Assembly: GCA_020002185.1 (NCBI GenBank)
Contig: CM034533.1
Location: 37,060,833 to 37,124,832 of the forward strand
DNA: 64,000 nucleotides
Source of the DNA: Paraescarpia echinospica
Taxonomy: Eukaryota; Annelida; Polychaeta; Sabellida; Siboglinidae
Direction of reading: 5' to 3'
The notes under the pieces are model-generated. The model saw only the letters and a program-made list of their open reading frames with translations, had not been told where the DNA came from and made no database searches. Both the position numbers and the translations under genes were made by a program. Within the stretch, counting starts at the first letter, position 1, and each line of letters opens with the position of its first letter. Shown piece after piece: positions 2,155 to 61,469 of the stretch.

Positions 2155-2182
<28 letters not shown>

Positions 2183-2249
2183 GTAGTAGTAATGTAGATG
2201 GTGCAGCATGTATGTTTGGATTCGGAGTAGAGGAAGAGGGAAAAATAGT

Positions 2250-3030
2250 TCCGTTAAAAGATAGGGAAATACCCGGATGTTGACGTCATTTGTACTTGCT
2301 CCAGTCCAACTCTAATCCAAATTGGACCCATTTCGTATAGGTCTAAAAGGGGTAAGTCGGACTTTAAAAATAGGGCAAAACGTCAGTTCGATTCATTGTA
2401 AAGGTATACGACGACTTTTTGAAATCGAGGTTCCAATTTACCCCTACATTTTTAGTCCTTCAAACCCCATGTTAAAACATAGCGAAATTTACCTATATTT
2501 TTATTTTTCGAGGGTTCGATTTGCCCCAAATGTCTTCAAAAAAAACTGTCCTACCAATTTTTCCCATGTTAAACGATAGGGAATTTCCCCCATGTTAAAA
2601 AATACGTACTAAACTCCATGTTAAAGGATAGGAGATTCCAATTTACCCCAAATTATCCTCTGAAACCTGACCTACCAATTTTCTCCATGTTAAACGATAG
2701 AGAATTTACCCCATGTTAAAAGATAGGTGTTAAACCCCATGTTAAAGGATAGGAGCTTCCAATTTACCCCAAATTATCCTCTGAAACCTGTCCTACCAAT
2801 TTTCTCCATGTTAAAGGATAGGGAAATTTGTCCCATGTTAGAAGATAGGTCATCTTCTCCATGTTAAAGCATAGGAAGTTTCCCCATGTTAAAGGATAGG
2901 AGCTATTATCGTAAATGTATACGACGATATTTTGACTTGGAGGTCCCAGTTTACCCCTACTTGTTTTACCCCTACATAGCCCATGTTAAAGCATAGGGCC
3001 TAAACCTCATGTTAAAGCATAGGCCGACCT
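2250..3030 (+). repeat. Interspersed short-unit array, consensus about CCATGTTAAAGGATAGG
   Basis: A core of about 17 bp (CATGTTAAA followed by A or G, then ATAGG or CATAGG) recurs more than a dozen times, separated by variable linkers such as GAATTTACCCC and AATTTACCCCAAATTATCC. Units occur in tandem pairs. The same unit appears inverted at 13,565-13,990, and also at 5,870-5,955, 29,830-30,025 and 34,515-34,715. It behaves like a module of the palindrome arms. Confidence 0.85.
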
Positions 3031-3194
3031 ACAACACATAACCAGTGCTAAACAATGACCTACAAATCTGTAAAACACCGACATACATCATAGGTCAGAC
3101 ATATAGACTAGTGTTATTAGGTAGTGTTTAAATTCGTGTCTCTTATAAAACCCGTACTCGAGACGTGTCTGGACATGTTTGTTTGTTGCGAGCG

Positions 3195-3620
3195 TGCGCA
3201 CCCTGTATGACGTCATCAAACTGCTACGCGCAGTAATTTTGTACACGAGGTGATTTGGTCAAACAGGTAGTGATTTGGTTAGCCATCGTTTTGAACTTGC
3301 GCGCTTGGATATAACTCCATCATGTGACGTCATGGTCAGTGAGTGACGTCATGGTTCGCGCAGTAATTCTATACGCGAGGTGAGTTGGTCAAGGATGTAG
3401 TGATTCGGTTAGACATTGTTTTGAACTTGCGCATATGCAATGTAATCTCACCATATGAAGTAATATAGTGACGTCATTAAACTGGCACGCGCAGTAATTT
3501 TGTACGCGAGGTAAGTTGGTTATACAGGTAGTAATTTGGTTAGCCATCGTTTTGAACTTGCGCACTTGAATATAACCCCCATCATATTATGCTATGGTCA
3601 GTGACGTCGTGTTATAGCGA
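3195..3620 (+). repeat. Three tandem units of about 130 bp carrying CRE-like TGACGTCA sites
   Basis: Each unit contains TGACGTCA, then CGCGCAGTAATTTTGTACGC, a GTGATTTGGTTAGCCAT segment and TTTTGAACTTGCGC. TGACGTCA is seen near 3,208, 3,326, 3,343 and 3,470, with a TGACGTCG variant near 3,602. The exact 8-mer is the consensus for CREB/ATF-type bZIP factors. Whether anything binds here is unknown. Confidence 0.7.
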
Positions 3621-5504
3621 GTGGAAAATTCCCCTGTAAAATTTCAGAAGTTTCTTTGGTAATTTTTCAGCACACTACAAAACTGACGCTACAAACTAAC
3701 CGGTATAAACTGGTATAAACTTGTAATGAACGCTCTGTGTGTTGGAAGAACAGCCGGGTGTTGGTATATAACATTTATACTTACCAGCCGTATCTCACTT
3801 GAGTCGCCACTTGAAAACTGATTCCAAACTGGTTCCAAACTGTTTTGAAGTGATACTCCCTGTGCAATGTCGATTCTCGGTGACCTTGACACCAAAGTTG
3901 TCAAACATATTGTTTGAAACAGGAGCATTACAAAGTGAAGCGATATGATAGAACAGTACATGTGTATTAGCTATCATTTGTAAGAACTATATCGAACACT
4001 GGCTATAAACAAACCGGTATTATCCTTTGACCTGTAACATTAGCTAACATACGACAGTTGTACTTACCAGACTTTGTATCAATATCGAAATAGTTAACAC
4101 TCTTTTGTGAGAAGGTGGTTGGCTCTGAAAAGAACCGTTTAAATCAAAATAAACCTTCAAAAACAACTAAAACTCCTAAAACGTTACGTATGCTCCAAAA
4201 ACAGCAACGAAAGGCGCCAAGAAGACCTCCAACGCTTCAAAAACAGCCACAAAAGGGGCAAAATAAGTCGTTACGAGACGAACGAGAACGAATAAAATAA
4301 TGCACCTGGTAATGTGTATAATTTTTTTTTATAGCAGTTCGATGGAACATAAAGGTCACGTGGGTGTGCCGAAAGATTATGGATTGTAGGATAGTACATT
4401 AAGGTCACGTGGGCGTGCCGAAAGATCACCGACTTCAGAGTACAAACTACACATGCGCAGCTGGTAGATTAGAAAATTCAAGCACGGACTGCAGAGTAAA
4501 ACCCTCTTTCACCACAGACACATGACACTATAATGCAATCCGGTATAAACTGGTAACCAAGACTCTATGTGTTGGAAAAATATCCGTGTATTTGCCCCGT
4601 GTTAAAACATAGGGAATTATAAAACAGTTACTTATCTGCTAAATTAATCAAACTACCTGCTATCTGTGTAATATTTTGATCAAACCCTTTGTCATGTAAA
4701 CAAGAAGGCCTCCAAAAGAAGCGTTAATAGGTGCCAAGAATACCGTTTAAAGCATACTGAAGACACCTGGTAATGTGTATCATTTATTTTTATAACAACT
4801 CGACGGAACGTAAAGTTCACGTGGGCGTGCCGAAAGATTATGGATTGTAGAGAATATAGTTAGTGAATGTGCCGAAAGGTCACGTGGGTGTGCCGAAAGA
4901 TCACCGACTTCAGAGTACAAACGACACATGCACAGACGATAGATTAGAAAATTCAAGCACGGACTGCAGAGTAAAACCATCTTTCAACACACACACATCG
5001 TACTGTAAGCAAACTGGTTCCAAACTGATTTGAAGTGGTATTCCCTGTTCAAGTCTCATCTGTGTTTCATCTGCATCTAGAGATCAACAGTAGTGTTTCA
5101 ACCTTTTATCATGCTATCATTCTTAATCCACACGTATGTACGTATGTAAAGAAGTAAACACAATCGACGCGCTATGCGCGAGACACGATGTCAACTTGGT
5201 GGCCTTGACACCAAACTTATCGAATAAAGAATTGGTTGGAAATCTCTTTTTTGAATCAGGCGCGTAACAAAGTGAAGCGTTATGATAGAACAGTACAGGA
5301 ACATAATATCCTTACAGATAAGATGTACCAATATTTATATAGTTTACCGTATTAAGGGTCAAGTGTACAAATGCCCATTAGAACGTTTTTATCTTTATTC
5401 CACACTGTAGTGTTTAAAATCTTGCTTCTTCGGTAAAACCTTTCAAACTCGCTTCTGCCGTAAAACTCCTAACCTGGTATCAGCCTAGTGCTAATAGCCT
5501 TACA

Positions 5505-5668
5505 ATTTACAAGGCAATTGACCAAGATACACAGGTAAATTCAGGCAAATCGACCAAGATTTCAGACAAATTCAGGCAATCGACCAAGATTTCAGACAGA
5601 TTCAGGCAATCGATCAATATTTCAGACAAATTCAGGCAATCAACCAAGATTTCAGGCAAATTCAGACA
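5505..5668 (+). repeat. Minisatellite of about 30 bp, unit like GCAATCGACCAAGATTTCAG
   Basis: About five copies of a unit built from AATTCAGGCAA and TCGACCAAGATTTCAGAC run up to the start of the GT tract. The inverted counterpart at 7,056-7,510 holds roughly fifteen copies, so the two arms differ in copy number. The shared 5' edge CTAATAGCCTTACAATTTAC (about 5,495) pairs with about 7,515-7,535. Confidence 0.8.
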
Positions 5669-5692
5669 GTGTGTGTGTGTGTGTGTGTGTGC

Positions 5693-5727
<35 letters not shown>

Positions 5728-5790
5728 TGTGTATGTGTGTGTGTGTTTCCGTGTGAGTGTGTGTGTGTGTGTGTATGTGTGTGTGTGTGT
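5668..5790 (+). repeat. (GT)n microsatellite, left partner of the core
   Basis: Imperfect GT repeats of about 120 bases. They are mirrored by the longer (CA)n tract at 6,545-7,055 on the other side of the core. Cysteine/valine-rich open frames across it are artefacts of the dinucleotide repeat. Confidence 0.9.
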
Positions 5791-6545
5791 ACTAACTACT
5801 CTATCGTCGACACACTTCCGGGAATGTTAGAACTCTATTACAGTCACATGACTTGAGGTGTGACCCTGTGTTAAAAGATAAGCCGTTTTCTCCATGTTAA
5901 AAGGTAGGAGGTTGTCCCATGTTAAAGGATAGGCCATTTTCTCCGTGTTAAACGTTAACTCGATGTATCGTAAAGGAATACGACGACATTTTTAGTTTGA
6001 GGTGCCAAACATCACATACCTTCATGTCAAGAGACGATCATCTGTTCCGATTCACGTCGAACGAGGCGACCATAGGACTCGTATGTGGTATCGCTTCTTT
6101 TAACGGAAAACATATGTATATGAAGCAGCCGTCTTTACAACGTAACAATTCCATATTTTCAAATAGTGCGAGCGACCAGATACGTTATGACCTTCTCGAG
6201 AGTCGAAAAAGGAAAGACCAGAATCGTCGGAAGCACGGTATATACAGTAGTTTTCGGCATCATCTCATTTGCCTAACCAATCAGACCGAACGTACATCAC
6301 GTGACTTCCCTTAACACAAAAAGTGTGCACGTTCATGAAACAGGTGAGTGACGTGTGATGGCCCCAACGGATAGCAATGTAACTACTCAGAATAACGCCA
6401 TCTATTGGCCATGACAGATCTGTATTCGTCGACACACTTCCGGAAATGGTGAATCCGTAGAGACCGGCATAACAGGTCGTCATGACATTCAAGTAACTTC
6501 CGGTTCGACGTTACTTCCGACGTAAAGGCCCCTAGAAGAGACCGC
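5791..6545 (+). other. Core of palindromic element 1, including a segment conserved in element 2
   Basis: This unique segment lies between the mirrored GT and CA tracts. A stretch at about 6,003-6,250 is nearly identical to the complement of 31,345-31,590 in element 2. It is open in one frame in both (RDDHLF, then LVCGIASFNGKHMYM, then KRKDQNRRK) with no insertions or deletions over about 80 codons. By eye, more of the differences would change amino acids than not, so coding selection is not demonstrated. A direct repeat of CGTCGACACACTTCCGG occurs at about 5,806 and 6,428. No known protein family was recognised. It may be a cis-acting or regulatory core. Confidence 0.65.
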
Positions 6546-6650
6546 CATGCACACATACACAGACACACACACACATACACACACACTCACACAAACACAC
6601 TCACACACAATCACACACAAACGCACATACACACACACACACGCACACAG

Positions 6651-6684
<34 letters not shown>

Positions 6685-7017
6685 ACTCACACACACACAC
6701 ATATACCCACACTCACACACACACAAACACACTTACACACACTCACACAATCATAAAGACACACACACACACACTCACACAGACATACACACACACACAC
6801 AACACACACACTCACACACACACACTCACACACACACTCACACATACACACACACATACACACACTCACACACACACATACACGCACACACTCACACACA
6901 CACACTCACACACACCCACACACACTCACACACACACATACTCACACACTCGGACACTCACTCACACACACAAACACACACACAAACTACACACACACTG
7001 ACGCAGACACACACACA

Positions 7018-7055
<38 letters not shown>
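6545..7055 (-). repeat. (CA)n microsatellite, right partner of the core
   Basis: About 510 bases of imperfect CA repeat with interruptions such as CTCACA and CATACA. It is the inverted counterpart of the shorter GT tract at 5,668-5,790. Threonine/histidine-rich frames on + and Cys/Val-rich frames on - are repeat artefacts. Confidence 0.92.
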
Positions 7056-7059
<4 letters not shown>

Positions 7060-7535
7060 CTGAATTTGCCTGAAATCTTGGTCAATTGCCTGAATTTTTA
7101 TGAAATCTTGGTCGATTGCCTGAAATCTTGGTCGACTGCCTGAATTTGACTGAAATCTTGGTGGATTTGCCTGAATTTTTCTGAAATCTTGATCAATTTG
7201 CCTGAATTTGCCTGAAATCTTGGTCGATTTGCCTGAATGTGCCTTAAATCTTGGTCGATTTGCCTGAATTTGCCTGAAATATTGGTCGATTTGCCTGAAT
7301 TTGCCTGAAATATTGGTCGATTTGCCTGAATTTGCCTGAAATATTGGTCGATTTGCCTGAATTTGCCTGAAATATTGGTCGATTGCCTGAATTTGTCTGA
7401 AATCTTGGTCGATTTGCCTGAATTTGTCTGAAATCTTGGTCGATTGCCTGAATTTGTCTGAAATCTTGGTCTATTTGCCTGAATGTACCTGTATATCTTG
7501 GTCAATTGCCTTGTAAATTGTAAGGCTATTAGTAA
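7056..7535 (-). repeat. Minisatellite of about 31-33 bp, inverted partner of the 5,505-5,668 array
   Basis: About fifteen units of a TTGCCTGAATTTG plus CCTGAAATATTGGTCGA pattern. The array ends in GTAAATTGTAAGGCTATTAG, which mirrors about 5,495-5,515. Because the unit lacks stop codons in one frame, a 157-residue repetitive open frame exists on the - strand. Nothing supports it being a gene. Confidence 0.85.
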
Positions 7536-7835
7536 GGTTCCCAACGTAATATTGCCATTGATTATCGCCAAACCACTCTTTAATAACCTAGAAATTTACA
7601 TTATTTTAGTACAATTATACAGTTTTATAATATTTTATTATTTTCAATTATTTATTATTTTTATGAGATATTATCATTTTATTCTTCACCATTTTGAGGA
7701 AAGACAATGTCACCAGCATTTTTATTGTGTGTTTTATTTTTATCCTGTTCTGCTGCTTCGAGATGTCACGATTTTACGCTGTGCAAGCCACTTAGTCCCC
7801 AGCGGTCGGCTGTCATTTGAACAGTTTCTCAGTAC

Positions 7836-8960
7836 ATGAGAACACAACATTCCTTGTCACATCTTCACAGTTTGCCATGTCTTAATCTTTGCTTTAATAG
7901 AAAGTTACTGCCAATCCCCCGCTCTAAGCCAACGTTTAAATTGGCAATTATTTCACTACTAGCAGGAGATGTAAGTCTTAATCCTGGACCTGCTATCAGG
8001 CGCAATATTCGAGTAGCCACCACTAACGTTCGATCTATCCGAGACAAAACAGCCTCGCTTACTGATTTATTAACTTCCAAGACAATAGACATCCTTGCAG
8101 TCACTGAGACCTGGCTCAGACCACATGACACAGCTGCATGCATTGCGGACATTTCTCCTTCCAGTTTCACCTTCCATCATCGCTCACGTTCAGTTGGTGG
8201 TGTTGGATTTCTCGTCTCAAAACAGTTCAAAGTTAATTTGCATTCAAACCCGGATTACTCCAGCTTTGAGGCCATCTGTGCCGAAATTTCCGATTCATCT
8301 TTCTCTGCTTATTTTGTGTGCATTTATCGCCCTCCAGGACACCCTGCCCATTTCTTTGAAGAATTCCAGAATCTACTTGAAAATCTGGCAACTATTTATT
8401 CAGAATTTTATATACTCGGTGATTTTAATCTTCATCTGGACACACCTTCATCAACAACAAGTACATTTAATGACATTCTGGCATCCTATGACATGAAACA
8501 ACATGTTACCTTCTCAACACACATACATGGCCACTGGCTCGATCTCTTAATCACCCGTTCAGATTGTAACAATATTCAGACACCTACTGCTTCAGATGGT
8601 TTTTCAGACCACCACACTGTCATTGCTGATCTCAAAGTTCCTAGAATTCCCGTAGAGTCCAAACACAATGTGTTTTACCGACCGATCCATAAGATTGACA
8701 TTGCCGCATTAATGACAGACATCCTTAAATCCGACCTCATCAGTAACCCCAAAGAACATCTGTCAGTTCTGTGTCGACAGTACTGTCAAGTACTCAAAGA
8801 TTTACTTAATAAACATGCACCCCTGAGATCTAAATCTGTGTTCCAAAAGCCACATGCTCCATGGATGACTCCTGAAATTCTACAATCTAAAAAGCGCCGG
8901 CGCTATCTTGAACGTGTATGGCGCAAACCTCACGCCTTTGGACAGATCACGATATTCTAA
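7836..8960 (+). pseudogene. ORF2 N-terminus: 2A-like peptide and APE-type endonuclease
   Basis: Residues 45-52 read DVSLNPGP (7,968-7,991), preceded by hydrophobic FKLAIISLLAG. This is the arrangement of 2A-like ribosome-skipping peptides known at the start of CR1/L2 ORF2 proteins. The endonuclease follows: VATTNVRSIRDK, LAVTETWL (catalytic Glu), GGVGFLV, VCIYRPPG, LGDFNLHLD (Asp and Asn of the active site), and the closing SDHHTVIADL. It would nick target DNA for target-primed reverse transcription. The ATG at 7,836 overlaps the stop of a 118-codon upstream frame as ATGA, but that frame begins inside the minisatellite and is probably chance. The frame shifts near 8,930, so the polyprotein is broken. 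Confidence 0.85.
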
Positions 8961-9252
8961 ACAGTGTCACTACTGCAACAGACAAATGGCCAAAGCTAAA
9001 TCAAATTATTACACAAACATGGTCTCGAGTAACTCTGATAACCCACTTCAGCTATGGAACTGCATAAATCATATTTTACACAAACGGCCGCCTCCATCTC
9101 TACTTGGTCATGTGTCAGTCAAATCTCTGTGTGACTCGTTTTCTAGTCATTTCAAAGATAAAATAAGTCTTATACGTTCTGTTTTTCCATGTCACACTTT
9201 AAATACAGTAAATGTGGCTCCCACAAGTAAATTCTCCACTTGTATTGTTTGA
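8908..9252 (+). pseudogene. Linker between endonuclease and reverse transcriptase (frame-shifted)
   Basis: The frame contains KAKSNYYTNMVSSNSDNPLQLWNCIN, then SVKSLCDSFSSHFKDKI and IRSVFPC. This is the typical connector upstream of the RT domain in L2/CR1 proteins. It joins the preceding endonuclease frame by a shift near 8,935 and the following RT frame by another near 9,230-9,250. The reading frames overlap at both ends. Confidence 0.75.
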
Positions 9253-10072
9253 GCCAGCCACATTTGATGAAGTGAGGAAAATAATAATGTCCTCCCCAAA
9301 TAAGTCATGCGATCTCGATCCATTACCAACCATACTACTAAAAGCATGTCTTGACTCTTTACTTGGTACAATAACGAATATCATAAATATATCACTAAGT
9401 TCGGGTAAATTCCCAGATGATTTTAAACATGCTCATGTAAATCCTGTTCTCAAGAAGACTTCTCTGCCAAAAGATGATTTCAAAAAGTATAGGTCAATTT
9501 CTAATCTTAGCTTTATTTCTAAGATACTTGGGAAAGTCTTAGCAAGCCGTCTAAGGCGTCATATTAGCTCAACTTGTTTATCCAGTGTGCTCCAATCAGC
9601 ATACAAACAATTTCATTCTACAGAGACTGCTCTCCTAAAAGTACACAATGATTTTATATTAAACATTGATAAAGGCAAAGTAACTGCACTTACCTTGCTT
9701 GATCTGTCTGCCGCCTTTGATACCATTGATCACAACACTCTTGTGAAACGTTTATCAATGTGGTATGGCATATCTGGCACAGCACTGACCTGGTTTTCTT
9801 CATATCTAACCAATAGACATCAATGTATAAAGATAGATAATTACTTTTCAACCTCACTCCCCACTTCATGTGGCATTCCCCAGGGTTCCGTTCTTGGGCC
9901 TTTGCTTTTCACTCTCTACATTACGCCATTCAGCTCTGTAATCCAAAGTCATAACTTGGATCATCACCTTTATGCAGATGACACACAGATCTACATTTCC
10001 TTGGCCACGACCGATACAAGTCACTCTCTAAACCGACTCAACGATTGTCTCCAAGATGTTTTTTATGGATGA
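9212..10072 (+). pseudogene. Reverse transcriptase palm of the L2-type element
   Basis: Motifs appear in order: SCDLDPLPTILLK, VNPVLKK, YRSISNLSFISKILGK, SAYKQFHSTETALL, LLDLSAAFDTIDHNTL (motif A Asp), SCGIPQGSVLGPLLF (motif B), and HLYADDTQIY (catalytic YADD at about 9,970). All catalytic aspartates are present. One more frame change at about 10,050-10,072 separates it from the downstream segment. The pattern fits L2 rather than RTE or Jockey. Confidence 0.9.
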
Positions 10073-10608
10073 CCGATAGTAAATTAAAGTTAAATGCAGA
10101 CAAAACTGAATTCCTCATCATTGGTACTCCAATGCAGCGAGGTCAACTTAGCAGCATATTAGATTATTGCAATTCCCTCTTTCATAATATTGCTACCAAG
10201 GATATTGCAAAACTACAACGCGTCCAAAATTGTTTAGCAAGGGTAGTCACACAACCTCCTCGATTCTCCCGCTCAGTGCCACTTCTAGAATCACTGCATT
10301 GGCTCCCCGTGCGATATCGCACTATGTTTAAGATCTGCACAATCACCTACCAAGCCCTTTCATCCAAACAACCTAGTTATTTACATTCAATGCTCACACC
10401 GGCTAGACAAGCCAGACAACTTCGATCGTCTAGTTCGAAGTTGCTATCTGTTCCTAGAGTTAAGACAAAGGCTGGAACTCGAGCTTTTTCAGTTGCCGCG
10501 CCAACTATATGGAATTCGCTTCCCGTTAATGTTAAATTAGCAGAAAATATTGTTACATTTCGTCGTCACCTCAAAACCTATCTTTTCAATATTGCCTATC
10601 CTCCCTAG
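10045..10608 (+). pseudogene. RT C-terminal domain with an internal deletion
   Basis: It starts with DSKLKLNADKTEFLIIGTP, then jumps straight to LSSILDYCNSLFHNI. The region normally between them (about 100 residues, as in the homologous frame at 60-400) is missing. It then continues with KLQRVQNCLARVVTQ, LHWLPVRYRTMFKI, FSVAAPTIWNSLPV and a short terminal helix. The junction at about 10,140 is in frame, so this looks like a clean deletion. Confidence 0.85.
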
Positions 10609-10755
10609 CTTCCTAGCACATCCATCCATTTGTTGACGACTTTCGCCTAGCACACGAGTACGAGAATGCTTAATCCTTTGTTTTTGGTGCGCCACTGAGC
10701 TCGGATTGTCTGAGGATATTGGCGCTTACGAAGTTATTTATTATTATTATTAACG

Positions 10756-11114
10756 TATGCTTTGCATTACACTATGAAAAAAGACACAAGATGAGGTTTG
10801 CACCTTTTATTCATGTACACAAACGTATTTATATGTCACACTCCATAACTACAAGAACCAGAGATAAGACATTGATACAGAGTCTTGCAAAGTTTAATCG
10901 TGTACAAGACAAAAGAAAGTTCTTTACAGATCACCCTCCATTACTGTCAGAACCATATGTTTCATAGTGTTTCGGCACTGTTTCGAAACGGATTCTTGCA
11001 ACCAAGTATTGATATTACTCAACTGTTCGACACTTTATGTATGTATCTATGTATGTATGTATCTATGTATATCTATATGTATATATATATATATGAGTTC
11101 GTTTTCAGTTACCG
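10756..11114. other. Unassigned segment between the L2 tail and the right arm
   Basis: This stretch has no counterpart in the left arm and no supported gene. It ends in a GTATGTATCTAT-type short tandem repeat (about 11,035-11,095) just before the arm resumes at CCAGGTTAGAAG. It may be original palindrome DNA lost from the left side, or a further small insertion. Confidence 0.5.
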
Positions 11115-14100
11115 ATGCCAGGTTAGAAGTTTTACGACAGAAGCGAGTTTGAAAGGTTTTACCGAAGAAGCAAGACTTTAAACACTACAGTGTGGAATAA
11201 AGATACAAAACGTTCTAAAGGGCATTTGTACACTTGACCCTTAATACGGTAAACTATATAAATACTGGTACATCTTATCTGGAAGGATATTATGTTCCTG
11301 TATTGTTCTTTACTTTGTTACGCGCCTGATTCAAAAAAGAGATTTCCAACCAATTCTTTATTCGATAAGTTTGGTGACAAGGCCACCAAGTTGACATCGT
11401 GTCTCGCGCATAGCGCGTCGATTGTGTTCACTTCTGTACATTCGTACATACGTGTGGATTAAGAATGATAGCATGATAAAAGGTTGAAACACTACTGTTG
11501 ATCTCTAGATGCAGATGAAACACAGATGAGACTTGAACAGGGAATACCACTTCAAATCAGTTTGGAACCAGTTTGCTTACAGTACGATGTGTCTGTGTTG
11601 AAAGATGGTTTTACTCTGCAGTCCGTCCTTGAATTTTCTAATCTATCGTCTGTGCATGTGTCGTTTGTACTCTGAAGTCGGTGATCTTTCGGCACACCCA
11701 CGTGACCTTTCGGCACATTCACTAACTATATACGCTACAATCCATAATCTTTCGGCACACCCACGTGACCTTTACGTTCCGTCGAGTTGTTATAAAAATA
11801 AATTATACACATTACCAGGTGTCTTCAGTATGCTTTAAACGGTATTCTTGGCACCTATTAACGCTTCTTTTGGAGGCCTTCTTGTTTACATGACAAAGGG
11901 TTTGATCAAAATATTACACAGATAGCAGGTAGTTCGAGTAATTTAGCAGATAAGTAACTGTTTTATAATTCCCTATGTTTTAACACGGGGCAAATACACG
12001 GATGTTTTTCTAACACATAGAGTCTTGATTACCAGTTTATACCGGATTGCATTATAGCGTGATGTGTCTGTGGTGAAAGAGGGTTTTACTCTGCAGTCCG
12101 TGCTTGAATTTTCTAATCTACCGGCTGCGCATGTGTAGTTTGTACTCTGAAGTCGGTGCTCTTTCGGCACGCCCACGTGACCTTAATGTACTATCCTACA
12201 ATCCATAATCTTTCGGCACACCCACGTGACCTTTATGTTCCATCGAACTGCCATAAAAAGAAATTATACACATTACCAGATGCATTATTTTATTCGTTCT
12301 CGTTCGTCTCGTAACGACTTATTTTGCCCCTTTTGTGGCTGTTTTTTAAGCGTTGGAGGTCTTCTTGGCGCCTTTCGCTGCTGTTTTTGGAGCAGACGTA
12401 AGGTTTTAGGAGTTTTAGTTGTTTTTGAAGGTTTATTTTGATTTAAACGGTTCTTTTCAGAGCCAACCACCTTCTCACAAAAGAGTGTTAACTATTTCGA
12501 TATTGATACAAAGTCTGGTAAGAACAAATGTCGTATGTTAGTTAATGTTACAAGTCAAAGGATAATACCGGTTTGTTTATAGCCAGTGTTCGATATAGTT
12601 TTTACAAATGATAGCTAATATACCTGTACTGTTCTATCATAACGCTTCATTTTGTTACGCTCCTGTTTCAAAAAATAGGTTTGACAACTTTGGTGTCAAG
12701 GCCACCGAGAGTCGACATTGCACAGGGAGTATCACTTCAAAACAGTTTGGAACCAGTTTGGAATAAGTTTTCAAGTGGCGACTCATGTGAGATACGGCTG
12801 GTAAGTATAAATGTTATATACCAATACCCGGCTGTTCTTCCAACACACAGAGCTTTCATTACAAGTTTATACCAGTTTATACCGGTTAGTTTGTAGCGTC
12901 AGTTTTGTGGTGTGCTGAAAAATTACCAAAGAAACTTCTAGAATGAAATTTTACATGGGAATTTTCCACTCGCTATAACACGACGTCACTGACCATAACA
13001 TCACATGATGGGGGTTATATTCAAGTGCGCAAGTTCAAAACGATGGCTAACCAAATTACTACCTGTATAACCAACTTACCTCGCGTACAAAATTACTGCG
13101 CGTGCCAGTTTAATGACGTCACTGTATTACTTCATATGGTGGGATTACATTGCATACGCGCAAGTTCAAAACAAGGTCTAACCGAAGCACTACATCCTTG
13201 ACCAACTCACCTCGCGTATAGAATTACTGCGCGTACCATGACGTCACTCACTGACCATGACGTCACATGATGGAATTATATCCAAGCGCGCAAGTTCAAA
13301 ACGATGGCTAACCAAACCTGTTTGACCAAATCACCTCGCGTACAAAATTACTGCGCCTAGCAGTTTGATGACGTCATACAGGGTGCGCACGCTCACGCTC
13401 GCAACAAACAAACATGTCCAGACACGTCTCGAGTACGGGTTTTATAAGAGACACGAATTTAAACACTACCTAATAACACTAGTCTATATGTCTGACCTAT
13501 GATGTATGTCGGTGTTTTACAGATTTGTAGGTCAATGTTTAGCACTGTTTATGTGTTGTAGGCCTATGCTTTAACATGAGGTTTAGGCCCTATGCTTTAA
13601 CATGGGCTATGTAGGGGTAAAACAAGTAGGGGTAAACTGGGACCTTTACGATAATAGCTCCTATCCTTTAACATGGGGAAATTTCCTATGCTTTAACATA
13701 GAGAAGATGACCTATCTTCTAACATGGGACAAATTTCCTTATCCTTTAACATGGATAAAATTGGTTTCAGAGGATAATTTGGGGTAAATTGGAAGCTCCT
13801 ATCCTTTAACATGGGGATTAGCACCTATCTTTTAACATGGGGAAAATTCCCTATCGTTTAACATGGAGAAAATTGCTAGGACAGGTTTCAGAGGATAATT
13901 TGGGGTAAATTGGAAGCTCCTATCCTTTAACATGGGGTTTAGCACCTATCTTTTAACATGGGGGAAATTCCCTATCATTTAAAATGGGGACAATTGGTAG
14001 GACAGTTTTTGAAGACATTTGGGGCAAATCGAACCCTCGAAAAATAAAAATATAGGTAAATTTCGCTATGTTTCAACACGGTATTTGAAGGACTAAATAT

Positions 14101-14386
14101 GTAGGGGTAAATTGGAAGCTCGATCTCTAAAAGTCGTCGTATACCTTTACAATAAATCGAATTGACGTTTTGTCCTATTTTCAAAGTCCAACTTACCCCT
14201 TTTAGACCTATACGAAAAAGGTCCAAGTTTGATTGGAGTTGGAGTGGAGCAAGTAAAAATGACATCAACATCCGGGTATTTCCCTATCTTTTTAACATGG
14301 GAACCGGAACTACTTTTCCCTCTTCCTCTACTCCGAATCCAACCGTACACGCTGGACCACCTACATTACTACTTATATATATATAA
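11115..14386 (-). repeat. Right arm of palindromic element 1
   Basis: Reverse complement of the left arm, module by module: the inner edge at 11,150-11,240; E-boxes at about 11,690-11,770 and 12,170-12,230; a region matching the GGTATAAAC block at about 12,840-12,890; CRE units at about 12,960-13,390; the TTTAACATGG array at 13,565-13,990; and an outer edge near 14,345. Scattered single-base differences and small indels show that the arms have diverged slightly. Confidence 0.85.
13565..13990 (-). repeat. Array of CCTATCCTTTAACATGG units (inverted copy)
   Basis: Roughly ten copies of the 17-bp unit with linkers GGGAAATTCC and GAAAATTGGTAGGACAGGTTT. It is the mirror of 2,560-3,030. Confidence 0.85.
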
Positions 14387-14698
<312 letters not shown>

Positions 14699-15163
14699 CA
14701 GAGCTTCCAAGTTGAATGAACCCAAAATAGGGAGATCTCCCTATGTTATCAAAACACAATAGGGAGATTTTACCGGTAATTTGTAAAAAGGGAACGCTTA
14801 TCGAAAACCTCCTAAGCTGAAACATACACATACCAGGAAAACCTAAAAAATGAAAAAATGTAGATGTATGGTGCAAAACTCGCCATGCAATCGTCACTTT
14901 ATTGCTTCTGCAACATAGTGTTGTAAAGTTGAGTCGCCTTTCCAACCGACTCCAGCAAACCTGGCGACATTTGCAACTAGTAGCATGCAGATGAAACATT
15001 GATTTTGCAAGCAAGCAAGGCAGCCAGGGACTGCAGTGCAGTGTTTTTAAGTTTTCGAATAAAATCGGGAGATATGTATTTAAATTCGGGAGATCGGGAG
15101 ATTTTCAAGATTCTGTCAAAATTCGAGAGATCTCCCGCCGAATCGGGAGACTTGGAAGCTCTG
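14699..15163. mobile_element. Small element with CAGAGCTTCCAAG terminal inverted repeats
   Basis: CAGAGCTTCCAAGT at 14,699 and ACTTGGAAGCTCTG ending at 15,163 form inverted termini of 13-14 bp. Subterminal GGGAGATCT and GGGAGAT motifs are repeated in inverted orientation. The CAGNG start resembles hAT-type termini, but a convincing 8-bp duplication is not visible. It has no transposase and is probably non-autonomous. Confidence 0.5.
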
Positions 15164-17800
15164 GCTTTATATGAACAAACAGGAACGTCACAAGCCCAAG
15201 ACCGAGTAGAATGTCAACAACAGAAACATGTCAACGTGTCTGTGTCAGATCGCAACTCAGTAAACTAGCCTGCATGCTAATTATTTTGGCTATGTAATAT
15301 TGGGAAAACAATACGATGTATATAATTATCAATGTGCTCCAATATTCCCGAGTCAACGACCGATCAGCGCCAAGGCCCAAATAGGTCGCTGGCCTCGGCT
15401 CAGATCAAGCATCGCCATCGGCCAGTGGCTACAGTCTACGACATAATCGACTGGCACGAACGATTAATCAATGAAGCTTCGCATGATCATATCTTCTAAC
15501 CTACAAACTAAAAAGGCAATAAAAATATCTCAACACAAACTTCTGAACCGAACTGTGTTCTTGCATCCAACTCGCCATTGTCGGTGTATCGTGACACAAT
15601 ACCGGGTGAGGGAATACCTCGAGGTATTCTATCACGGACCACTGTCGTGATCAAAAGCCTTGTCGTGCCAATAGCCCGCGTTTGCACATGGCTGCGTTAA
15701 TTGCAATTAGCGGGTATCTGATGCGGTCATTTGTTGGTGTAGTAAGTTTCTTCAGTGTTTCGGGGGGCCTGGGTTGGTCCATGTGTTCCTATGTGAGCAG
15801 CTCTCGGCTAAATATTTAATTTATGCTTGAGTGTTAAAATTTAATATGCACGTGTAAATACGTTTTAAATATTCACAATAAAATTTCATTTTTAAAGCAA
15901 TTCTATGTGTAAAATAAAGATGATTTGGAGGTACAGGTGTATTTGGCACTAAATAAAAGAGTCGTTTCGTCGTGGAGTTGATGATAAATGACATTAAGTT
16001 AATATTTAATTAGTTACATAAGTATAAACTTTGCATTTATGCATGACTATTAAATTTCGATATGGGCACATTGTAAATATGTACGTTTTGGTGTCAATTT
16101 GGAAGCATTTATATGTGTAATATATTACATATTATATTACGCAGAAAAAGTCATCATAATCATATATAATAACTTTACATTATACTATTATAGCTATAGT
16201 CCTTATAAAAAATACTGATTTTATACGAGAATATCAAAATTTCATATACATTTTTGTGAAATATATAATGTTTTAGTTGGAAATAAAATTATTTCTTTGC
16301 CTAAAATAAATATGATTTGGAGGTGTTTAGCCGTGCTGAAAGCGTCGCTGGCCAAAACCGTCATGACTGATTGCTTGCGACTGGCCATGGCGCCCTATAG
16401 TTTAACATGGAGCGAGGAATTGTGGCACGGCGAGGTTTTCTGGCACGCAACACCGGCTATGCTAAATTCGTTTTTATCACTTCTTTGACCACTCAATTGA
16501 TAACAGTACATGTACGGATATCATTAACCAAGAGTATGTCTTATGTCAGATTCGCTCCTACTACGCATTTTGTGTGATTACAAATATTGCTAAAACCGAT
16601 TAAATGTACAGTGCCGCAGGCGTAGATCATTGTACTGCGAATATCGTGTAGCCAAATTTATGTCACGCGGCCTCACAAAAATAGCAAAAACTGCACGCCC
16701 GGTTTCCTGAATTTACACAAATATCTTTGGTATTTTTTTAAATGTTATGACTAAATTAGTTAACGTTTTGTTATACCATGATTGAATATGAATAAGGGGA
16801 TAGCTATTTACCCATAAATAACGACATTGTTGAAATGTATACCACCTTTGCATCTGATCTTTAACGGTATTCCGTTACTCCGTGATCTTCAGATTTTGCA
16901 ACGGATTACCAGACTTGACGGTACGGGGATCCGGCCGGATTACCGCTATATGCTGGAAAGTAGGGGTCGATTTTAATGGTATTTCGTTACTCCGAACACA
17001 TGTCTATGTGAAGTTCGCCTTGTAGTTAGCTCAAACAAATTTGATTAAACGTGTGCGATGAATAGGGACCTACACTATTGATGGTATTGTGGCGCGCGGG
17101 ATGTGAAGTGCCAGTGGTTTCCGCGTTGTTTATTTAGCAACTCGGCCTAAGGTGTGACTGCCACAAAATCAAAGGCAAAATTGGCGGGCCGAGACATCGC
17201 GATATTGTTTGGGCAGGCAAATAAGCAAAATAAGCAAAACACATGGGCCGTATCACGGTATGATTCCACAGAGCACACATATTTTTTTGAAATAAATGAG
17301 GCAATGAATAGCCACGTGTTTTTTTATTTTACATGAATTTGACGGATTGCCAGATTTCTAGACGGATTACTGAATCTCATATGTTTTAACCTTCAAATCT
17401 ACCCCTGGTTTTACTTTAAAATTCGAAATGTTCGTATAATATATATTAATAAGCATATTCGCTTTTCAAACTATCGCGGTATGTAGGATTCGCTTATGCC
17501 ACTTCAATGATCTTTCCCGCCAGTTCTCGCCATTCGACGCGGCTGAGGGCACTCAGCATCTCGCCATCACCGCAGTTGCGAAGCTGTAACCCAAATCTAA
17601 ACAAGTCGCCGTATAGGACAATCTGTAATGTTACATATGGTCGCCCGCGAAAGCCGCCCTTATCTGGTCTAAAGTACTCGTCATTGGCAAGTTCGAGCAG
17701 GGGCGTTCGGTGGTAGACGTAACACGTGGCCGAAGAGTCGCCACCGTGCTTATCGGACCAACCGACTGAACGGCTGGCATCGACGATATAAGGTTTCTGA
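15164..17800. other. Unassigned AT-rich DNA without a supported gene
   Basis: No coding region with codon-like character or family motif was found on either strand. A single unit like the palindrome motif (TATAGTTTAACATGG) occurs at about 16,395. Repeated GACGGATTAC and CGGATTACC fragments occur near 16,900 and 17,345. It may be intron or old repeat. Confidence 0.5.
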
Positions 17801-20229: not shown

Positions 20230-20299
20230 GTCTGTTATGGAATAAGATGGAATAACAAGATTGCCACCCAGAGAATTAACTCTAGATGATAGGTGGACA

Positions 20300-21118
20300 A
20301 GGAAGCCTTTTGGCTTATCGAGAGTCCAACCGTTTTTATTGATGTGTATCCAGCCATTCTGAGGTGCGTGTCGATTTTATTTTTAAACATACTCACGCTA
20401 CTAGCAGCATGTAATCTGTTCCAATAATGTATAGTCCTTTGTGAAAATGAGAACTTTCTTATATATAATCTACACTGCTCCTTTACTAATGTAACTTCAT
20501 GTCCCCTACTCTTTCGATTTTTCTAAACTGACAAAACATATTTCTATAAATATTTTCATAACCACTCAATATTTAAAAAAAACTTCTATCTCATGTACTC
20601 TCAATCTCGTGGTCTGTAGTGTTGCCCAACCACATTCTTTTATGCGTATTTTATTACTAAGATCTCTCAGTTTTTGTATCATTTTAGTCGCTCTCCTCTG
20701 TAATCTTTCTAACATATTTATGTTTTTCTTGCGACCATATGGCCTCCACGCTTGTATACAATTTTCTAAATGAGGACTAGCTATTGTTTTGTACAGTGGT
20801 ATTGTTAGTTATGTTTCCTTATAGGCTATATTTCGCCTAATTAATCCAAGGATTGGATTTCCATTGGAGCTGCAATTCCGCACTGCCCTAAAACTTTCAT
20901 ATCAGCACTAATTGTTAACCCTAGGTCCTTTTCTTTTATAGTAGTACATAGTACAGTACCCCCCATTGTGTATTATACATCTTCGTTCCCATGTCCTGTG
21001 TGGAAGCATTTACATTTTTCCAAATTGAACATCTGCCATTTTTTTTGTCAGACCAGTTGATCAACTTGTCAAGATCATCTTGTAAATGCTGTCTATCTCT
21101 ATCTCCCCCAACCAGCAT
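20300..21118 (-). pseudogene. CR1 copy A: RT C-terminal region and 3' end
   Basis: The translation gives DRDRQHLQDDLDKLINWSDK, then after frame changes the equivalents of LTISADMKV, GLIRRNIAY, LENCIQAWRPYGRKKNINM and LERLQRRATKMI. These match copy B at 37,040-37,450 position by position. The fragment is non-functional. Confidence 0.75.
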
Positions 21119-22545
21119 GCCATCCTCCGCCCGAGGACGGATCTGAGCAGCTGGGAAGCGGCACCCTTCCGCACACGACAGCCGCCTGCCTGCCGCTCTC
21201 CAGCCGTTGTTGACCCAGTGACATTTGATTGTGTGGAACCTTGTTATTTATGCATAAAACATTAAATAGAATGTGAGGCAGAATAACCTGATGTCATGAT
21301 TGTGGCCACCCTATAGACTATGGATGACGATGATATGATGAGGATGAATGTGTCTCATCAACAACAAATACTGTCTCCTGTGCTGCCTGTTCCTATTTGT
21401 TATTTTGACAGGGTAAATGTGTTATGGATGAAGTGCTTACGCTAGGCGCCGACTGTCAGTTTATAGCCCACACAATTTCATTTATGTCGCAATTTACTTT
21501 AGTTTAGGGCTACATAAAACAGTTCCAGGTTTCTCATCAGAATTTTATTAATATGTAAATGAGGGGTTCGATTTATGGTAAATGTGTGTATGTTGATCGT
21601 GATGACGGTATTAACAACTATCAATGCAACTCATCGTCAACAATTAAAAACTTAAAAGTCTCAATATGTCTACTGAATGTATTTCTTAAAGTAGGCACAT
21701 TCCTTTGGTTTGGTGTGAAATATAGTTTTGTATTTTTGCGCAGCATTACTGCATACATATTTAATCAAAGGGTTAAATTATATTTTAAAATAAAGTTTTG
21801 TGGAAGCTATTTTAAAATTGTTGTGCAGATGAGAAACCGGGAATTTATTTTATAAAAGTAAAGTAAAATGTTTTATGTGACCTTATTGTGAGACAAAATG
21901 TGTTTAATATTTTACATATTTTATAGATACTCTGCATTGTACAATGCGGTACTTTCATTGAACTAATTACATATTTGTACGTTAATATTCCAGATGCTGT
22001 CAGAAAGAATGATGTGGCAACATTACCTCTGACTACAACATCAGGAGAACATTCGAAAATATTCCAAGACTGCCTCTGGCGGGAATGGTGTTAGACAGCA
22101 CCGGGTGACAAATGCAGCTGGATGTAGCAGAACAGAGTTTATGGACAATAATATATAAGCAGCCTGTTTATAAACTATTTGAGTTGTCATGTGCCGCACG
22201 AATCAATTAATTGCAACTTGCTTTTTGATTTTCTTGTATTAAAGGAAATATAAACAAAGCATTAGCTAAAATCCGTTTTCCATGTGTACACAAAGTTTAA
22301 CATTGTATGTAACATTCTAGAACAAAAAAATACAGAAAATACATTTGTAATGTTCAAGTTATACGACCAATACACATAAGTGTATGTGTATAATTTGGTC
22401 TTATTACTTGAAAACACACGCAATACACACATTTAACAAAATTAGGCACAGTCGGCATTTGATCGGCTAACCATCGGCAGAGTATCGGCATCCGACTATG
22501 AGCCGCCCTCGGCCCGAATGTCATGTGCCGCATGAATCAATTAAT
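21119..22545. other. Insert splitting CR1 copy A, with a candidate terminal exon on +
   Basis: This block interrupts the CR1 copy. TCATGTGCCGCA followed by CGAATCAATTAATTG near 22,188 is repeated near 22,521. At 21,994 an ATATTCCAG acceptor-like site opens 33 codons ending in TAG at 22,092 (VATLPLTTTSGEHSKIF, then QDCLWREWC). It could be a terminal exon, but there is no partner exon or recognised family. Confidence 0.35.
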
Positions 22546-23620
22546 TGATCTTATCCTCTGGTACTGGCAGTGAACTGATATCTTCCCTGGTAAACACCGA
22601 ACCAATGTACTCATTCAGGTCTTCTGCCATTAAGAATCCCCTGATATTATATTTTCTTATTAATCTAAATATATATATATATATATTAAGAATAATATAG
22701 GTCGCAGTACTGATCCCTGTGGTACCCCACTCAAAACTGATTTCCAATTTGAAGCCTCCCCATCAACTACTACCCGTTGTCTTCTGCCAATCAGCCATTT
22801 TTCTGTCCAGTTAGTTATACCAACCCCTATGCCATGTACATTTAGTTTAAGCAGTAATCTACTGATAATCCCTCGTCTGATCACTAAGTGATGTCTTCCA
22901 AAAAACAAAAAATTTTCCCATGCATGACCTCGCTTTTAGAAACCCTCGTTGAGATGGGTTTATCAAGTTATGTTTAACAAGAAAATCCACCATGTGATAT
23001 TTAATTAATCTCGCTGATAATTTGCATATCACCGATATTAAACTCACCGGTCCGTAGTTCTCTGACTTGTTTATAGTACCCCTTTTAAATAACGGTATAT
23101 AATGTTTGCTTCTTTCTATTATAATGGAACCACTCCCTCGTTTAATGACAAGTTGAAAACTGTTGCATGCGGTATGCTAATTTGTTCTACAATTTCCAAT
23201 AATTGTATGGGTGGAATCCCATCCACTCCAGGTTTATTATTATCCTTCATTATTATTGCCCTTACTTTCTTAGCTACCATTTCCGGGGTTACAATTAACT
23301 GTCCTAAATAGTCTGATTCCGCCCCCTTGATCTTATCCTCTGGTACTGGCAGTGAACTGATATCTTCCCTGGTAAACACCGAATTAATGTACTCATTCAG
23401 GTCTTCTGCCATTAAGAATCCCCTGATATTATATTTTCAGCACTATCTTATAGAGGACCGACCTCATCATGAACTTGGTGTTTCCTCCGAACAAATGCAT
23501 ACAACTCTTGCTGCCATGTTTTATATTACAAGCTAATTTTGTTATAGCTTCTCTTTGAATTTCAAATTTTAGTTGTAGCTTGGTTAAGTGCTTCTTTATA
23601 AATAGTGTAGTGTTCGTCAT
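22546..23620 (-). pseudogene. CR1 copy A: reverse transcriptase palm fragments
   Basis: In - strand order the fragments are: AEDLNEYINSVFTREDISSL and LGQLIVTPEMVAKKVRAI, then DNNKPGVDGIPP (the RT entry motif); ICKLSARLIKYHMVDFL with NLINPSQRGFL; and IISRLLLKLNVHG with GVPQGSVLRPILFLIY (motif B, with R where copy B has G). After this the sequence dissolves into a (TA)n run where the FADD motif should be. Several frame changes separate the pieces. Confidence 0.8.
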
Positions 23621-23830
23621 TTTACTGCGTCTATATAACTACCACATCATTTTTGTTTGTACTAAATTGTTCTAATGGCTTCTTTCGATAAGTGTTTCTT
23701 TCTGGACCGTTTCCCTTGTTTTTAATGGAACAAACTTATCGACTATGCACTCAATTTCACTTCTTAACATATCCCTGCATTATGCTGCTGCCTTATTCTT
23801 AAATGTGCTATTCCAATCTATCTTTGTTAA

Positions 23831-24478
23831 CTATTTCCTCATGTCCTTATATCTTCCTTTGTGGAACTTTCTACTGTACTGCTTTTTATGATTCTTTGCT
23901 GATTTTACTTTGGTGGTACAATGTATCTGGTTGTGATCACTATTCCCAAGTGGCTCACATATCTTGACATTGTCAACTAAGTCACTCTGTGATAACAAAA
24001 CTAAGTCTAACACATTTTCTCCCCAGGTAGGTTCTAGCACACCTTGAGAAAGGAAACTATCCTGTACTAAAACTAAAAACTTGTGTTCCTCACTCTCTGT
24101 ACTCTGTAGAGATTTCCATTGTATATGTCCATCGTTAAAATCCCCCATAATAATAAAATCCCTTTTGTTCACTTCCCTAATAGCGTTTTGTACTGTTATT
24201 TCCTTCAATGCTTATGCCTGGACTTCTATAAACTAACCCAACCGTTAATGTCGAGTTTCTTTTCAAACAGCTTCTTTGCAATCTGCTTCTCTTTCTAATT
24301 TGATTTCATAAGCCTGGATAGATTCTTTAATATATAAAATAACTCCACCTCCCCTTCTTCCTATTCTATGTTTCCTAAACATTTCACGGCCTGTCAGTCC
24401 CAATTCGGCATCTGATATATCGGTGGTGGTCCATGATTCGGTTTTACCTATTATGAGAGGGTCAATATCTAAAACCAT
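23831..24478 (-). pseudogene. CR1 copy A: APE-type endonuclease
   Basis: Two overlapping frames give IDPLIIGKTESWTTTDISDAEL (catalytic Glu in TES), then GRRGGGVILYIKESIQA. After a break comes RDFIIMGDFNDGHIQWKSL (MGDFN), VLDLVLLSQSDLVDNV and GNSDHNQIHC (catalytic SDH). The domain is recognisable end to end but broken around 24,210-24,260. Confidence 0.85.
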
Positions 24479-24590
24479 AATGTTTAGTTAACTTCTTTTG
24501 TTTAATGTCCTTGCATTTAAACAAACGCATTTATATCCAGCTTCAGAACAGTTTTCCAGGCTGTTCATTGCTGATTTATTTGTGCTGTCT

Positions 24591-25297
24591 TTATCTATAC
24601 CTCCAGTTTCGGGCCTCTCTGTGAATCCCCGTGCGCATCTTGTTTAAATAAATGTAACGTATCCCACTGTTAACGGATCGCAGCAGGTTCTCTGAGAAAG
24701 CTGCTGCCCCCTTTTCACTTAGATGGAGGCCAAATCTCACGTACATATCTTCCCTTTTAACGAAACATCTCCTTAAATATATCATTCTCACCCCCTCCTC
24801 TTCACAAATCTGCTCAACTAATGTATAGATTGCCATCCTCTAGCAGTTTCTATATTTTGCCCCCTTCCTCCCATTACGGACAAAATTCCTGATTGAACAA
24901 TCTTTTCTACCCTTGTCTGCTTTAACTTCCTGACTAACTGTCTGTACTTCTGGATTATTCCGGTTGTCCCCTCCCTCTCTGCATTATTTGTGCTTACATA
25001 TAGTAGAATGATCCCTCCTTACCCAGGACCCATCACTATCTCTACCCTTTCTGTTATAAGCTTTATCTTGGCCCCTGGTAAGCAAACTACTATGTCTTCT
25101 CCTTCACTAAGCGTCTTGTCTGTCTTTCTCATTAAAGAATCAGCCATGAATATTCTCGTTTTTCTCCCCACCCTTTCTATCACTACCTCAGAGTAGCTCC
25201 TTTGTTGTTTTCCACTCGTTTCTTTGCTGTCATCTCCCTCTGTATCCTTCACCCCAACGTTAACTCCTGTCTTCGTTCCCCTGTGCGGCCCCTTCAA
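24591..25297 (-). pseudogene. CR1 copy A: ORF1 with SGNH-esterase-like domain
   Basis: The frames give YSEVVIERVGRKTRIFMADS, then EGEDIVVCLPGAKIKLITER, and after a gap YLRRCFVKREDMYVRFGLHL then SEKGAAAFSENLLRSV. ORF1 proteins of the CR1 clade are known to carry an SGNH/GDSL-type esterase domain, with the Asp-x-x-His pair in the DGLHLS motif. Here the motif is FGLHLS, so the Asp is lost. The middle of the domain, including the expected VGTNN block, is out of frame. Confidence 0.7.
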
Positions 25298-27010: not shown

Positions 27011-27537
27011 GGAAAGAGAGGGTGTTTATGGGCGACTACATGATGAGAAAGACGGACAAGACACAGGGCCAGGGGAAGGACGTCGTTGTTTGTCTACCGG
27101 GGGCGAGGATTGAACATGTGACTGACAGGGTGGAGAAGGTATCGGGACATGGCAAGGGAGGGTCTATACTGGTACATGTAGGAAAAAATAATGCAGACAG
27201 GGAGGGAACAACTGGGATAGTACAGAAGTATAGACAGGTAGTGAGGAAGCTAAAGAAGACAAGAGTTGAACAGATAATTTCGTCATGAATTTTGCCAGTA
27301 ATGGGAGGAAGGGGGGCAACGTATAGAAACTGCAAGAGGATGGTGATCAATGCACTAGTTGAGCAGATGTGTGACGAAGAGAGCGTGGGATTCACAGATT
27401 TGCGGGGTTACTTTGTTGGGAGGGAAGATATGTACATGAGAGATGGCCTCCATCTTAGTGGAAAGGGGGCAGCAGTTTTCTCAGAGAACCTGCTGCGATC
27501 TGTTGACAGTGGGACAGGTTGCATCTATTTAAACTAG
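27007..27537 (+). pseudogene. CR1 copy B: ORF1 SGNH-esterase-like domain, one in-frame stop
   Basis: The sequence runs DVVVCLPGARIEHVTDRV, GGSILVHVGKNNADREGTT (the GTNN-type block, here GKNN), VEQIISS, then a TGA at 27,286. It continues in the same frame: ILPVMGGRGATYRNCKRM, GREDMYMRDGLHLSGKGAAV and FSENLLRSVDS. DGLHLS holds the Asp and His of the esterase catalytic site, and both are intact. The single TGA and the Thr-to-Lys change in GTNN argue for decay. The family role (lipid or ester hydrolysis in CR1 ORF1) is known; its function in transposition is not settled. Confidence 0.75.
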
Positions 27538-27599
27538 ATTCGCAGTGGGGACTCAAACAAAAGCCTGAAACTGGAGGCATAGATAAAGACAAATAAATC

Positions 27600-28308: not shown

Positions 28309-28309
28309 G

Positions 28310-28662: not shown

Positions 28663-28739
28663 ATAGGTTACGAACTGAAAGAGAAGTACAAATAACTCCC
28701 CCTGCCGGATTTCAGTGAACCAAATATCGATACGGCTTA

Positions 28740-31096: not shown

Positions 31097-31127
<31 letters not shown>

Positions 31128-32009: not shown

Positions 32010-33875
<1,866 letters not shown>

Positions 33876-35763: not shown

Positions 35764-35789
35764 TAGCCTGGAATAACACACTAAAAACA

Positions 35790-61440: not shown

Positions 61441-61469
61441 TGTCCATCAACTTGCTGCATAAACCAAGG

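Follow-up and report, generated by a model that had tools for sequence, protein, structure and literature searches.

The stretch of DNA examined here, 64,000 nucleotides of contig CM034533.1 of the siboglinid annelid Paraescarpia echinospica (assembly GCA_020002185.1, positions 37,060,833 to 37,124,832; hereafter the window), holds two giant palindromes, copy 1 at 2185-14373 and copy 2 from 28296 to approximately 35766. A first-pass annotation, made from the letters of the window alone, had described them as two members of a mobile family built on one plan, and mirrored arms, mirrored CA/GT tracts, shared modules and a shared core are indeed all present. Its limits of 2,155-14,386 and 28,310-35,775 placed the palindromes correctly while missing their ends, the tips lying at 2185, 14373 and 28296.

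In copy 1, the outer part of the left arm (2185-5481, forward strand) starts with the tip AGTAGTAATGTAGA and carries the subterminal motif AATACCCGGATGT at 2268; the mirrored right arm (11114-14373, reverse strand) has the same motif at 14268-14280 and closes with the tip AGTAGTAATGTAGG, which ends at 14373. Aligned over 2171-5481 and 11114-14385, the arms are 96.4% identical (3132 of 3250 aligned sites, 118 differences). Farther inward, a 30-bp minisatellite of the left arm (5491-5668, forward strand) is mirrored in 7354-7532 at 94%, and the core (5791-6549) is framed by mirrored tracts of GT (5669-5790) and CA (6550-7056). Most of this core (5869-6549) matches that of a complete genomic copy at 90.5% identity, and it is not coding. 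Its open reading frame (ORF) at 5955-6311 was considered as a gene and rejected: it has no relative, the core stretch shared with copy 2 carries no codon signal in any of the six frames, and the homologous block of the complete copy has no frame of 90 amino acids or more. The right arm hosts an L2 retrotransposon (7533-10756, forward strand, edges placed by inference; ORFs within 7821-10605), recognized by Pfam matches to RVT_1 and to an endonuclease; the one named L2 record among the matches listed is from Apostichopus, at 54%. We discarded the idea that L2 accounts for the entire non-mirrored insert (7533-11113), for its last portion (10757-11031, reverse strand) matches instead the end of a gene of fuller relatives, gene 2 below, comprising the end of exon 2 and the 3' flank (83% amino acid identity over 36 residues, E 4e-14; 91-94% DNA identity to a 10.1-kb element on C5).

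Copy 2 lies inside a CR1 element, and its left arm (28296-30668, forward strand) begins at a break in the CR1, with AGTAGTAATATAGG, the same tip, with one change, that forms the outer end of both arms of copy 1; the subterminal motif follows at 28404. The two arms match in two parts, 28467-29105 with 35123-35762 (95.6% identity) and 29416-30668 with 33876-35126 (95.8%). Between these parts, a 310-bp block (29106-29415, forward strand), which contains a piece resembling the copy-1 tip, is present only on the left, the right arm having suffered a deletion at a 4-bp CGTG microhomology. The core (31339-32006) is framed by CA (30669-31338) and TG (32007-33875) tracts; its portion 31339-31583 is common to copy 1, inverted, and to the C5 element (90%), and a relic of the start of another gene, gene 3, lies at 31674-31895 on the reverse strand (C2H2 finger FQYSDCKRHFTHRGNLKRHS, weak zf-C2H2 match, 74.5% DNA identity to the C5 element; intact form in locus L060). 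The right arm (33876-35766, reverse strand), defined by arm identity, is truncated at its outer end, where about 170 bp of arm and about 77 bp of CR1 have been lost together.

Modules common to both copies are a 26-bp repeat, CATGTTAAAG (42 sites at up to two mismatches versus 0.02 expected), a 131-bp repeat, a 60-bp inner module and the mirrored CA/GT tracts, to which is added a core stretch of 248 bp that is 93% identical and lies in opposite orientation. At E values up to 1e-3, 100% of the left arm of copy 1 and 83% of that of copy 2 find a match in their own mirror arm, and 29% and 36%, respectively, in the other copy. Outside the elements, pieces resembling the 26-bp repeat and the subterminal TGACGTCATTTGTAC occur at 16393-16410 and 60956-60971, perhaps as relics or by chance.

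The CR1 element provides a direct view of an insertion. Comparison with an uninterrupted paralogue elsewhere in the window (20253-25132, reverse strand, identified by sequence match) shows that copy 2 has split a CR1 into a left part (27043-28295) and a right part (35769-37874), both on the forward strand. The insertion history read in the first pass, copy 2 inside a CR1 and copy 1 hosting an L2, is thus borne out on both counts, by this paralogue and by the Pfam matches mentioned above. CR1 elements also occur in or beside several other members of the family (L018 and L019 on C9, L020 and L021 on C4, L022 and L023 on C1, L028 on C13, L031 and L038 on C8).

How many such elements does the genome contain? 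The tip AGTAGTAATRTAGG and the subterminal motif AATACCCGGATGT were defined from the window alone and then sought in its own assembly (1.08 Gb, 3111 contigs). Within the window, the motif has three exact matches, situated 83, 93 and 108 bp inside the three tips, and ten matches at up to two mismatches, nine of which fall within the elements, compared with 1.2 expected for the whole window. Genome-wide, tip and motif at their natural spacing produced 56 exact matches versus none for the reversed control, and the same two-part pattern with a shorter gap gave 11, again versus none. Many of the relatives fetched bear both signals at their ends, mostly 91-93 bp apart; eight further pairs of facing tips were found among the genome-wide matches to the tip and motif, at C1:36757206/36764764, C4:60166049/60174412, C5:72404944/72418137, C8:9645388/9655555, C8:64144912/64157022, C14:33239536/33250146, C215:28237/44177 and C231:5395/20805. 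A 1-kb arm probe returned at least 99 matches among those listed (40 scored of 1955 first-look candidates). The possibility, raised in the first pass, that only two copies exist does not hold. Nine matches of an 18-base motif in other genomes, all single short bacterial or archaeal matches, were taken as chance and not used. In one place (L026; C1:2791514 and C1:2797060), two tips of the family point in the same direction 5.5 kb apart with identical flanks, which indicates a tandem segmental copy.

Both tips could be read in nine elements, and five of these are bounded by an exact 6-bp target duplication: cataaa for an element of 15,417 bp, gacgta for one of 4,173 bp, ggttaa for one of 6,585 bp, tgtaac for one of 13,891 bp and taccct for one of 10,145 bp. 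The elements so measured are therefore of 4.2, 6.6, 10.1, 13.9 and 15.4 kb, and copies span 4.2-18 kb. This count leaves out the tips in C1c, C3b and C1b and a neighbouring tip in C14, in which two tips belong to different elements, and passes over weak tip-like matches (four mismatches) in C4, C8, C4c and C4d. No clear duplication can be drawn from the window itself, since copy 2 lacks its right tip and copy 1 was inserted into an AT repeat. The termini are of the form AGTAGT...ACTACT. Shared tips, the 6-bp duplications at five elements and at least 150 scored full-length matches to gene 2 speak strongly for a mobile modular family rather than two chance inversions.

Fuller relatives of the window copies carry predicted genes: a small ORF 1, a two-exon zinc-finger gene (gene 2) and a C2H2 gene (gene 3). 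ORF 1 is a frame of 79 amino acids in the C14 copy with a PLDLS motif, which may be of CtBP type. The predicted product of gene 2 has 363 residues; exon 1 encodes a zinc ribbon and a C2H2 finger, with Pfam matches mostly below cut-off, and exon 2 is conserved and contains cysteines and histidines. Gene 3 combines a C2H2 finger with a conserved C-terminal domain that has no Pfam family above cut-off and may resemble uncharacterized Maverick-type proteins. Exon 2 of gene 2 has at least 150 full-length matches (150 scored of 2787 first-look candidates), 134 of the 150 without a stop, and for gene 3 at least 145 rows are listed (144 scored of 7444 first-look candidates), 117 of the 145 without a stop; as both lists comprise the top-scoring copies, they are biased toward intact ones. 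Of 15 copies, 14 retain the splice acceptor of exon 2 and 13 have a recognizable donor. In some copies, for instance at C12:58200625 and C10:38434769, the frame of gene 2 is open for 367-457 amino acids through exon 2, perhaps because the intron is readable or absent. The window copies keep only fragments of these predicted genes, in copy 1 the last part of gene 2 (10757-11031) and in copy 2 the first part of gene 3 (31674-31895). The absence of a recognizable transposase noted in the first pass stands for the window copies and for the family ORFs scanned, even if the fuller relatives do bear predicted genes. The motifs which had suggested arms structured like regulatory DNA are placed upstream of these genes.

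The layout of these genes often follows the symmetry of the palindromes. The 10.1-kb element at C5:20681881 has ORF 1 and gene 2 in both arms, facing each other, one exon 1 having a frame break, and its gene 3 extends from one arm into the core. The 15.4-kb C1a element (C1:40760355) and the C9 element each have parts of gene 2 in the two arms; the 4.2-kb C14 element has gene 2 once, between arms shorter than 1 kb, and the elements at C5:45501763 and on C8 gave no gene match. Among the matches listed, neighbouring copies of gene 2 within 20 kb form 23 pairs, 18 convergent, 1 divergent and 4 on the same strand, and 8 of the 18 convergent pairs have equal scores versus a random mean of 0.54. For gene 3, counted over 144 of the 145 rows (row 145, a further segment of a match already counted, was omitted), 14 of 18 such pairs are convergent.

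The likeness of the arms is itself informative. Differences between the arms concentrate near the ends, in copy 1 at 43 of 547 outer sites against 75 of 2691 inner sites (0 of 1000 shuffles reach the change-point score) and in copy 2 at 11 of 75 against 69 of 1813 (10 of 1000 shuffles); with repeat zones masked, the score is reached by 0 and 2 of 1000 shuffles, respectively. The tips are consequently about threefold more divergent than the interior in both copies, which differ equally from arm to arm outside the tips and the zones of the 26-bp repeat (71/2437 and 44/1489). Blocks that differ between copies 1 and 2 are mirrored inside each copy, and the C9 element has a portion of a CR1 mirrored from arm to arm at 94% identity. 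Features confined to one side look recent: in copy 1 the L2, in copy 2 the 310-bp deletion and the loss of the right tip, and in C1a and other copies single CR1s. Judged from these sequence comparisons, the arms are likely to be kept alike by copying from one to the other, a process that would involve the tips more rarely. This argument rests on the tip gradient and the mirrored blocks because the arms show no surplus of long identical stretches, and gene conversion as the sole cause of arm identity is accordingly not proven. The same gradient and blocks could also arise if the palindrome was born after the blocks were gained, or if tips were exchanged between copies.

Our interpretation is that the window palindromes are relics of high-copy palindromic DNA transposons whose fuller copies bear predicted zinc-finger genes, often a set in each arm, and which are likely inserted by an integrase of Maverick/Polinton type; we give this reading a probability of about one half. 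The helper integrase is suggested by the end sequence and the duplication length. Such an enzyme, probably acting in trans, would recognize the AGTAGT...ACTACT tips and perhaps also the subterminal AATACCCGGATGT, and would join the tips to a 6-bp staggered cut. In fuller copies an arm bears a promoter-like region (TGACGTCA, CACGTG and TATA), the small ORF and the two-exon zinc-finger gene, with the third zinc-finger gene reaching into, or adjoining, the core; from this observed layout, transcription of the two arms is predicted to converge. Repair likely copies one arm onto the other, which would bring inserted blocks, genes and even a CR1 to the mirrored place, with less correction at the tips, and gene loss that spared arms, tips and core would lead to copies like those of the window.

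Several results weigh against this reading. Four of the nine elements show no clear 6-bp duplication; two sites are uninformative, their six bases being self-complementary (tatata on C9, cacgtg on C4), the third is window copy 1 with its AT-repeat target, and the C7 element has no duplication (ggttta versus agctta). The scanned ORFs of the family yielded neither a polymerase, integrase, ATPase or capsid nor any known transposase, and PF03175 gave genome-wide only three weak matches (338 candidates, 91 scored), none of them within 20 kb of the listed family matches. Exon 2 of gene 2 has a ratio of nonsynonymous to synonymous substitution rates (dN/dS) of 0.65, with values of 0.48-0.72 in pairs with C14 (C1a, C9), and little excess of third-position changes; coding constraint is therefore weak. 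To these is added the lack of excess in long identical runs mentioned above. The main alternative is a self-sufficient family, in which the product of gene 2 or gene 3 is an undescribed transposase making 6-bp duplications and the Maverick-like ends are convergent. It stays serious because PF03175, the sign of a resident Maverick polymerase, is limited to those three weak matches; moreover, many copies are open among the matches listed (134 of 150 for exon 2 of gene 2, 117 of 145 for gene 3) and gene DNA is better conserved than the arms, as between C14 and C1a, in which it is 93.2-93.6% identical compared with 80.7-89.7% for the other segments listed. These lists are nonetheless biased to intact copies, the coding constraint is weak and neither gene has a transposase match in Pfam or PDB sequences, nor gene 2 in NCBIfam, so that we consider this alternative possible, if somewhat doubtful. 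Further searches gave no relative in PDB sequences for exon 2 of gene 2 and gene 3, none in viral contigs for two arm patterns, the core pattern, gene 2 (single and as an alignment) and gene 3, and none in the phages searched with the core.

Could the palindromes instead be ordinary foldbacks of the MULE or P superfamilies? These share the architecture of long, internally repetitive arms, a middle domain and noncoding derivatives, but the duplications are of 6 bp where they can be resolved, as opposed to the 8-10 bp described for Tetris (PMC4079207) and the 9 bp described for Tm1 (PMC3169594), and MULE, FLYWCH and THAP domains are absent from the ORFs scanned, which makes this origin very improbable. 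Comparably small is the chance that host-driven inverted duplication built the palindromes where they stand, without the palindrome as such ever being transposed. Repair can create large palindromes, and that of C9 runs about 404 bp past both tips (L039, L018, L019 and L040), as if the target itself were a palindrome; a palindromic target, however, can equally account for this flank, and units with fixed ends are evident from the tips, the subterminal motif and the 6-bp duplications that recur at loci unrelated to one another, their insertion being displayed by the uninterrupted CR1 paralogue. The near-perfect mirroring of module order might finally evoke an assembly artefact of mirrored reads, to which we give practically no credence: the arms are about 4% divergent, with indels and with insertions in one arm only, and arm segments at other loci are about 83-98% identical. 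The divergence of the arms rules out the artefact, which the first pass had named as a possible refutation.

The rest of the window holds other repeats and ORFs. Adjoining the right tip of copy 1 is a separate hairpin resembling a miniature inverted-repeat transposable element (14374-14700; arms AAAGTGATTTTGTGGAAGCACAGTGC..., AT/TG center). A tandem array of ~203-bp units with GACGTC sites (41490-41900) is unrelated to the palindromes as far as seen. At 56097-60071 there is an open Gypsy polyprotein of 1324 amino acids with protease, reverse transcriptase, RNase H and integrase, which over the region searched shares 97% identity with a protein of another assembly and 58% with Asterias, no named record exceeding 60%. 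A PHD-finger ORF followed by an endonuclease-like ORF (61401-63287) probably represents another long interspersed nuclear element; its ELNPGP motif is presumably 2A-like. In a selection of the longer ORFs outside the elements, Pfam found only retrotransposon domains, the PHD finger and weak matches below cut-off, and Rfam and tRNA searches over the window gave no match.

No report of this palindromic family was found in the open-access literature searched, subscription papers and repeat databases lying outside the search. Foldbacks have so far been traced to MULE and P transposases, and a link to Maverick-type ends would constitute an unrelated route to the same architecture and a new kind of Maverick dependant. 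We would tentatively go further, at somewhat less than even odds, and consider a new transposon class, with a gene set per arm, Maverick-type ends and 6-bp duplication, symmetry upheld by arm copying and proteins of unknown fold for mobility. Its members would be the first foldbacks tied to the integrase world of Maverick/Polinton, either as parasites or as a capsid-less, polymerase-less branch. The mirrored gene sets and the less-alike tips make the upkeep of giant-palindrome symmetry testable, and the many open copies suggest that the family may still be mobile and may form a sizeable part of the genome.

Among known systems, the sea-urchin TU elements are modular foldbacks of a marine animal with shorter arms, likened here by description only. 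The family has the structure of foldbacks, with long inverted arms, internal tandem repeats and a middle domain, and it lacks the 8-10 bp duplication of the MULE type, five elements having 6 bp. Tetris, as described in PMC4079207, has similarly modular arms (flanking, outer and inner domains), tandem repeats and a noncoding middle; its arms, however, reach 1.7 kb, its duplications are of 8-10 bp and it has no genes, being ascribed to the Mutator superfamily, whereas our family has predicted genes, 6-bp duplications and arms of several kilobases. The accounts of Galileo (PMC3573991, PMC3688188) describe a P-element transposase and terminal inverted repeats (TIRs) of up to ~1.25 kb, lengthened by inner sequence recruited into both; the transposase footprint, which lies at +63 to +80 and is accompanied by additional sites within the arms, is comparable to our subterminal motif, but no P-type (THAP) transposase match occurs in the family ORFs scanned. 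By these descriptions, the arms of Tetris and Galileo have several domains, contrary to the first-pass annotation, which held foldback arms to be usually simple tandem repeats. Tm1, according to PMC3169594, shares composite foldback-type TIRs with repeated motifs, its arms being on average 93% alike, but has 9-bp instead of 6-bp duplications and a Phantom/MULE transposase. In its ends and target duplication, the family comes nearest to Maverick/Polinton, not to the usual foldback superfamilies. Vertebrate Mavericks are described (PMC8097293) as elements 12.7-24.6 kb long, with ends of (AG)3//(CT)3 or (AGT)2//(ACT)2, perfect 6-bp target duplications, TIRs 46-1447 bp in length and a set of eight core genes including polymerase, integrase, ATPase and capsid. 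Our family resembles them in its AGTAGT...ACTACT termini, its 6-bp duplications and the large size of some copies, while differing in arms of several kilobases, in copies of 4.2-18 kb and in ORFs in which, as far as scanned, those core genes were not found. The palindromic family of Paraescarpia is therefore no Maverick by genes, size and arm length, but a foldback by structure and of Maverick type by its ends and target duplication.

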